Assembly (NCBI GenBank): GCA_023378865.1
Contig: JAMCSP010000026.1
Span: 1 to 53,797, forward strand
Source: Candidatus Parvarchaeota archaeon
GTDB taxonomy: Archaea; Nanobdellota; Nanobdellia; Parvarchaeales; Parvarchaeaceae
DNA length: 53,797 nucleotides
Direction of reading: 5' to 3'
The translations under genes were made by a program, and so were the position numbers. This document shows positions 20,155 through 44,189 of this stretch, piece by piece. Positions within the stretch are counted from its first letter, which is position 1; each line of letters begins with the position of its first letter. The notes under the pieces are model-generated. The model did no database searches and was not told the DNA's origin. It saw only the letters and a program-made list of their open reading frames with translations.

Positions 20155-20204
20155 GCTATTAGGTAATTATAAATATTTAAAGTATCTATTAAAGTAATCA
20201 TTGT

Positions 20205-20303
20205 GGCCTGGTAGCTTAGCCCGGTAGAGCACTGCTCTTATATGAGTATGCTCCAACATTTTAGGAAAAGCAGGGGTCCCGAGTCCAAATCTCGGCCAGG
20301 CCA
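20205..20303 (+). tRNA. tRNA-Ile (UAU) with intron
   Basis: The acceptor GGCCTGG pairs with CCAGGCC and the discriminator is A. The D arm is GCTTAGCCCGGTAGAGC, the anticodon stem CTGCT/AGCAG, and the T arm CCGAG/CTCGG. The 32-nt anticodon loop exceeds 7 nt by 25. Removing 20243-20267 gives loop CTTATAA with anticodon TAT at 20239-20241. A TATA-like TATTTAAA lies upstream. tRNA-Ile reading AUA with UAU instead of a modified CAU is rare in archaea. Confidence 0.88.
20243..20267 (+). other. 25-nt tRNA intron between positions 37 and 38
   Basis: A bulge-helix-bulge can be drawn. CTTA (20237-20240) pairs with TAGG (20262-20265) as the 4-bp central helix, and 3-nt bulges TAT and AAA carry the two cut sites. 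The inner helix GAGT/ATTT is weak, with G-T pairs. It matches the standard archaeal intron site. Confidence 0.78.
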
Positions 20304-20370
20304 ATATTATTCACAAAGTTTAAATAATACTATTGCTCTATTCTTTATCTGTAAAATAAAGGAGGTAAAA

Positions 20371-44106: not shown

Positions 44107-44189
44107 GCAGAGGTAACGAAGCGGTCAAACGTGTAAGGCTTAGGACCTTATGGCTTAGGCCTTCGAGGGTTCAAATCCCTCCCTCTGCA
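44107..44189 (+). tRNA. tRNA-Leu (UAG)
   Basis: The acceptor GCAGAGG pairs with CCTCTGC and the discriminator is A. The anticodon arm TAAGG/CCTTA surrounds CTTAGGA, giving anticodon TAG. A long variable arm (TGGCTTAGGCCTTC) is typical for tRNA-Leu. No intron is present. Confidence 0.93.

Follow-up and report, generated by a model that had tools for sequence, protein, structure and literature searches.

An intron-bearing tRNA-Ile(UAU) appears to replace tRNA-Ile2(CAU) and TiaS in an archaeal phylum, and a hairpin in its precursor may serve anticodon modification

A gene for an intron-bearing tRNA-Ile(UAU) lies in the 53,797-nucleotide stretch of Candidatus Parvarchaeota DNA that we analysed (the window), and this organism almost certainly uses its product to read AUA directly, replacing tRNA-Ile2(CAU) and the enzyme TiaS. 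The same replacement is very probably the prevailing rule in the phylum. Comparison of the precursors also brought into view a structure in which the unspliced intron, through its 5' half, pairs with exon nucleotides 21-32, and we are fairly confident that this hairpin is real and selected. An explanation that joins these observations, in which the UAU tRNA would depend on its intron for modification of U34 by way of the precursor hairpin, draws on analogy with yeast and is in our judgment evenly balanced between right and wrong.

Read directly from the sequence, the locus holds every element that the earlier note had described: a cloverleaf, a 25-nt insert at 37/38, a CTTA/TAGG helix, two 3-nt bulges, and the anticodon TAT (Table 1). 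The intron (positions 20243-20267) is TGAGTATGCTCCAACATTTTAGGAA, the outer helix of the splicing fold (a bulge-helix-bulge, BHB) is CTGCT/AGCAG, and the spliced product folds as a tRNA with the anticodon loop CTTATAA and thus the anticodon UAU. The Rfam tRNA model gives 53.3 bits to positions 20205-20303 on the forward strand, where the gathering score is 29. ARAGORN called no tRNA at these positions under default settings; with introns allowed, it called a 25-nt intron in a gene spanning 20204-20304 but assigned the wrong anticodon (UGA). The earlier note had allowed that a better fold might yield another anticodon. The Ser-UGA fold is contradicted by the relatives, which conserve CTTATA and the BHB, and we rejected it. 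In four named relatives (L096, L099, L100, and L101), tRNA and intron are identical and adjoin the same synthetase gene; the arrangement of a 4-bp helix between two 3-nt bulges recurs in most of 50 relatives, and the helix CTTA/TARG is repeated throughout the phylum. Given that identity and that recurring helix, the gene is not a product of chance. The known BHB rule predicts the positions at which the endonuclease would cut, and the intron would be spliced as an ordinary BHB intron, leaving a tRNA-Ile(UAU) that we expect to be charged with isoleucine.

Table 1. Features of the tRNA-Ile(UAU) gene and its predicted precursor folds, in window positions
Feature	Positions	Strand	Basis
5' exon of tRNA-Ile(UAU), nt 1-37	20205..20242	+	reading, Rfam, relatives
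Anticodon TAT (UAU)	20239..20241	+	reading; conserved in all UAU genes read
25-nt intron at 37/38	20243..20267	+	identical in four named relatives
3' exon, nt 38-73	20268..20303	+	reading, Rfam
BHB central helix, 5' strand CTTA, partner 20262-20265	20237..20240	+	
BHB central helix, 3' strand TAGG	20262..20265	+	
BHB 5' bulge TAT, predicted cut 20242/20243	20241..20243	+	known BHB rule
BHB 3' bulge AAA, predicted cut 20267/20268	20266..20268	+	known BHB rule
Hairpin upper stem, 5' strand, nt 28-32, TGCTC, partner 20244-20248	20233..20237	+	
Hairpin upper stem, 3' strand, GAGTA, intron 2-6	20244..20248	+	
Six-nt loop UUAUAU, U33-A37 plus intron nt 1	20238..20243	+	
Hairpin lower stem, 5' strand, nt 22-26, GAGCA, partner 20249-20253	20227..20231	+	
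Hairpin lower stem, 3' strand, TGCTC, intron 7-11	20249..20253	+	
ACA at intron 14-16	20256..20258	+	position-specific across phylum; 15-17 in most possessing it

The window is contig C26 of a DPANN genome (G000) of 807,505 bases, 36% GC, and 91% completeness. Its closest named relatives are metagenome genomes of Nanoarchaeota and Candidatus Parvarchaeota, with 85-94% identity in the neighbouring class II synthetase, and NCBI assigns them to the kingdom Nanobdellati. AUA accounts for 70% of isoleucine codons in this genome, so that decoding of the main isoleucine codon falls to a single UAU tRNA gene; at 64 per 1000 codons, the use of AUA is heavier still than the earlier remark that ATA is used often had implied. 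When the whole genome was checked for tRNA-Ile2(CAU) and tiaS, as that note had recommended, it yielded only two tRNAs with CAU, an initiator-like gene at C12:11123 (AGCGGA start) and a presumed elongator tRNA-Met at C10:43374. A third CAU tRNA of the isoleucine type was not found in the tRNA listing of this 91%-complete genome, and with one CAU gene initiator-like and the other presumed elongator, no spare gene is left for tRNA-Ile2(CAU). TiaS (PF08489) was not detected in the genome by a search that was positive in 4 of 4 archaeal controls. The same search found TiaS in none of the 32 family genomes and none of the 371 phylum genomes, among them 243 that are at least 90% complete, which bears out the earlier suspicion that this organism may lack the enzyme. 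Both TiaS and tRNA-Ile2(CAU) could be present in the cells and simply have dropped out of the assemblies: the host genome is 91% complete, and the expected Thr-UGU and Ser-UGA tRNAs were also not found in it. However, the absence of TiaS from every one of the 243 most complete genomes in effect refutes this reading and makes it vanishingly improbable.

The body of the UAU gene is of the isoleucine type, with an acceptor and D-arm, including GGYCTGGTAGCTTAGCCCGGTRGAGC, that are common to the tRNA-Ile(GAU) gene at C10:13488. This likeness points to a duplication, as has been reported for Korarchaeum, in which tRNA-Ile(UAU) has one intron and resembles the organism's own tRNA-Ile(GAU) (PMC6000648). 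Other tRNAs of the host genome have peculiarities of their own. The presumed elongator tRNA-Met (C10:43374-43445) has G37 in the loop CTCATGA in place of the usual A37. An A occupies the wobble position of a tRNA-Leu(AAG) (C8:10910-10992, reverse strand) and a tRNA-Pro(AGG) (C19:43153-43227, forward strand), something very rare among archaea. The genome yielded neither a Leu(GAG) nor a Pro(GGG) tRNA, and the Leu(AAG) gene is nearly identical to Leu(UAG) at window position 44107.

Across the 371 genomes of the phylum sample, which we infer to be GTDB Nanoarchaeota/Nanobdellota, a strict DNA pattern for tRNA-Ile(UAU) matched 211, and the reversed-pattern control gave zero among the matches listed. 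With its strict D-arm, this pattern has low sensitivity (the corresponding GAU pattern recovers 20 of 60), and a looser pattern gave 40 matches that were mostly noise, with one clear new gene among them. Among 30 complete genomes that the strict pattern missed, a covariance model (R1) together with reading by eye uncovered the UAU gene in 19; in the other 11, it was not found by the model, the looser pattern, or reading. An intron at 37/38 is present in 122 of the 125 distinct UAU genes read, and the three intronless genes all belong to one large family, f52. For comparison, tRNA-Ile(GAU) genes of the same phylum carry an intron in 7 of 20 cases (Fisher p = 3e-11). Where there is one clear intron in a UAU gene, its length runs from 17 to 81 nt and is mostly 18-50 nt, so that length is free. 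A tRNA-Ile with UAU has been known in 2 of 167 archaeal genomes (PMC6000648), and the earlier statement that it occurs in a few lineages agrees with this literature but proved too narrow for a trait that is phylum-wide. Our survey of the open-access literature returned no report of a phylum-wide UAU tRNA or of the precursor hairpin. Some genomes of the sample (G034, G053, G074, G071, and G078) have tRNAs with several introns, in the D-arm, anticodon stem, and T-arm, and in two nearly complete genomes of family f4 the Rfam model finds just 20 and 27 tRNAs, apparently because of multiple introns.

In the phylum-wide form of the hairpin, an upper stem joins exon nucleotides 29-32 to intron nucleotides 2-5, a lower stem joins exon nucleotides 21-26 to intron nucleotides 7-12, and U33, U34, A35, U36, A37, and the first intron nucleotide form a loop of six bases. 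Position-wise permutation detects covariation of exon nucleotides 30, 29, and 31 with intron nucleotides 4, 5, and 3 and of nucleotide 26 with intron nucleotide 7. The pairing percentages come from 105 precursors aligned without gaps, family f52 having been set aside after inspection of the data. In this alignment, 90.5% of upper-stem cells are paired, compared with 81.8% in shuffles and no more than 48% in slid registers, and the stem contains 24 compensatory cells compared with 5.6 in shuffles, a value reached in 0 of 500 shuffles. Both stems taken jointly are 76.7% paired, compared with 71.5% in shuffles and at most 45% in slid registers. The pair between nucleotide 30 and intron nucleotide 4 is G:C, C:G, or G:U in 103 of 105 precursors and switches from G:C to C:G in families f1, f12, f16, and f46. 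The lower stem has at least five of its six pairs in 48 of 106 cases, compared with 8 or fewer in any other register, and in L174-L176 a change of nucleotide 25 from C to T is matched by a change of intron nucleotide 8 from G to A. Shuffle counts overstate significance, as the sequences are related, but a test at the family level holds: with one gene from each of 46 families, 0 of 300 permutations reach the observed mean. All of these tests used the same sequences on which the hairpin was discovered.

The structure is specific to the UAU tRNA, in that introns of other tRNAs at the same loci form all four upper-stem pairs in 1 of 44 cases and a nearly complete lower stem in 3 of 44. Predicted mean pairing probability is 0.63 for the hairpin and 0.05 for the BHB central helix, and the window precursor is predicted at -38.0 kcal/mol with the hairpin compared with -19.5 kcal/mol as a cloverleaf plus BHB. 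With the hairpin predicted to be the more stable fold, splicing would require a rearrangement. An ACA trinucleotide also recurs at a fixed place in the intron. It falls exactly at intron nucleotides 15-17 in 35 of 122 introns compared with 2.3 expected, a count that is independent of pairing, and outside f52 it starts at intron nucleotide 14, 15, or 16 in 43 of 106 introns, drawn from 24 families. In f52, three genes are intronless and the other introns mostly have neither hairpin nor ACA, so any mechanism that uses the hairpin is not universal. The UAU introns of that family (L115-L133) fold into a hairpin of another kind, in which a TTCGTTAGGA-like loop recurs, making them a natural contrast group. 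Two tRNA-Cys genes of the host genome (C4:862-970 and C13:64446-64554) show a separate intron-exon pairing, again with an ACA: their introns are about 38 nt long, and the 3' part of each (ACATAGCC and ACATGGCC) complements the D-arm (GGCTATGT).

As summarised in PMC7694415, Mandal 2014 found that an archaeal tRNA-Ile given a UAU anticodon by mutation binds AUG besides AUA. Since AUA is the main isoleucine codon of this organism, misreading of AUG cannot be a minor matter for it. We propose that the precursor hairpin, and not the mature anticodon loop, would be the substrate of a U34-modifying enzyme. U34, and possibly U36, would be changed early, to pseudouridine if yeast is a guide, with splicing coming afterwards; the mature tRNA would then read AUA and not AUG, and the intron would be retained as a modification guide. 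We give this role for the hairpin, which is argued by analogy, slightly less than an even chance. In yeast tRNA-Ile(UAU), pseudouridines at positions 34 and 36 need the intron (PMC11408192), and the likeness extends to a 37/38 intron that base-pairs around the anticodon and to the need to avoid AUG (PMC11408192, PMC4090602). In yeast, the anticodon itself is paired with the intron in a double helix and Pus1 does the modifying, whereas here the pairing flanks the anticodon without covering it, leaving it in a loop, and Pus1/TruA is almost absent. TruA is the family of yeast Pus1 and of the synthases for pseudouridines 38 and 39. It was absent from 99 of 100 phylum genomes sampled and present in 1 (of 14 controls, 12 were positive). 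The task must therefore fall to a different enzyme, and we dropped TruA/Pus1 as the modifying enzyme.

Cbf5 is one candidate and would act with no separate guide RNA. Its domain was found in 98 of 100 phylum genomes, and archaeal Cbf5 can modify U55 of tRNA without a guide in vitro (PMC7912444). In our own comparison, the hairpin resembles the U55 substrate: U34 is second in its loop, about 10-11 stacked pairs follow, and then comes ACA in the place of CCA. The precursor might in this way imitate a T-arm stacked on an acceptor helix, with Cbf5 pseudouridylating U34 and the intron serving as a built-in guide. We rate both the enzyme assignment and this imitation as unlikely. Unlike U55 substrates and H/ACA RNAs, the hairpin has a six-nt loop that is not a T-loop and has neither guide pocket nor kink-turn, and in contrast to H/ACA RNAs, ACA is present in under half of UAU introns. 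The internal loop of the hairpin, 2x1 or a single bulge, is too small to hold a target, and an intron-encoded H/ACA guide with a pocket of its own was dropped. The cbf5 gene of the host genome (C8:13005-13349, reverse strand) has an insert of its own that folds as a small BHB (GGGA/TCCC and CTTT/GAAG, bulges AGA and AAA). Its removal restores the protein motif, it is present in two species of the genus and absent in two, and it is probably a very short mRNA intron; crenarchaeal cbf5 introns lie at the same codon position (PMC2738675).

Several other accounts of the hairpin deserve weight. It could serve only the order of folding and splicing, holding the 5' half of the precursor until synthesis of the 3' half and later rearranging into the BHB for the endonuclease, with U34 handled elsewhere. 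RNA up to intron nucleotide 17 suffices for the hairpin, which could thus form during transcription, and intron nucleotides 2 and 3 also pair in the inner helix of the BHB (0.95 and 0.81). However, intron nucleotides 4 and 5, which covary with exon nucleotides 30 and 29, pair poorly in that inner helix (0.38 and 0.51), the other tRNA introns at the same loci splice without such a hairpin, and a fold more stable than the BHB would hinder splicing; we consider this account improbable. A still smaller chance goes to the hairpin as a shield that keeps Elp3 off U34 for as long as the intron is in place; U34 would then stay unmodified, or be modified differently, and no dedicated modifying enzyme would take part. 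Elp3, which makes U34 modifications, is present in 97 of 100 phylum genomes, and the yeast intron does block Elp modification (PMC11408192), but U34 would again be exposed to Elp3 once spliced unless it had been changed, and a mere shield does not need an ACA at a fixed place.

About as doubtful as a shield is the view that no special modification exists, the ribosome or IleRS of these archaea tolerating UAU without harmful misreading of AUG, as may be so in certain bacteria with UAU, and the intron being simply inherited. Some bacteria do use a tRNA-Ile3(UAU) instead of CAU (PMC8450103), and the UAU gene is intronless in three genomes of f52. Simple inheritance leaves unexplained both a covarying hairpin that is specific to the UAU tRNA and the retention of the intron in 122 of 125 genes. 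Least probable among the accounts of the hairpin, and very unlikely in our estimation, is that a partial duplication of the 3' exon left the intron behind as a relic, with leftover pairings that are unselected; some introns are indeed similar to the 3' exon of their own gene, such as CCATTGGT in L326, but compensatory changes have arisen in several families, as with the pair between nucleotide 30 and intron nucleotide 4.

Among known systems, the closest are the UAU tRNAs of Nanoarchaeum equitans and Korarchaeum cryptofilum, which likewise have no tRNA-Ile2(CAU) (PMC8450103), and an intron-bearing tRNA-Ile is common to N. equitans and Nst1 (PMC3655853). Those two organisms are described as two exceptions, whereas here the trait spans a phylum, and their descriptions (PMC8450103, PMC6000648, PMC3655853) contain no conserved exon-intron hairpin of the kind found here. 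The archaeal system of tRNA-Ile2(CAU) and TiaS, based on agmatidine, answers the same need at the same codon, but its CAU gene and TiaS are both absent here. Archaeal tRNA-Trp introns carry box C/D guides, and the tRNA-Met intron of N. equitans has a guide-like RNA. As in those cases, a tRNA intron may here direct modification of its own tRNA; unlike them, the UAU introns are mostly 18-50 nt, no C/D boxes were noted, and the pairing lies within the precursor.

In the isoleucine/methionine box, position 34 has to carry a special base in most prokaryotes, and just two archaea are named as exceptions in reviews. What had been an exception of two archaea appears here as the prevailing rule of a large phylum, and a conserved exon-intron hairpin supplies a concrete reason for keeping the intron. 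How archaea with UAU avoid misreading AUG is an old question that can now be tested on one small RNA. Intron-dependent modification of tRNA-Ile(UAU) has been known from eukaryotes, and our results suggest an archaeal parallel with a different enzyme. If the Cbf5 reading is true, this phylum would have given up agmatidine and would hold an archaeal counterpart, by another enzyme, of the eukaryotic intron-dependent modification of tRNA-Ile(UAU).
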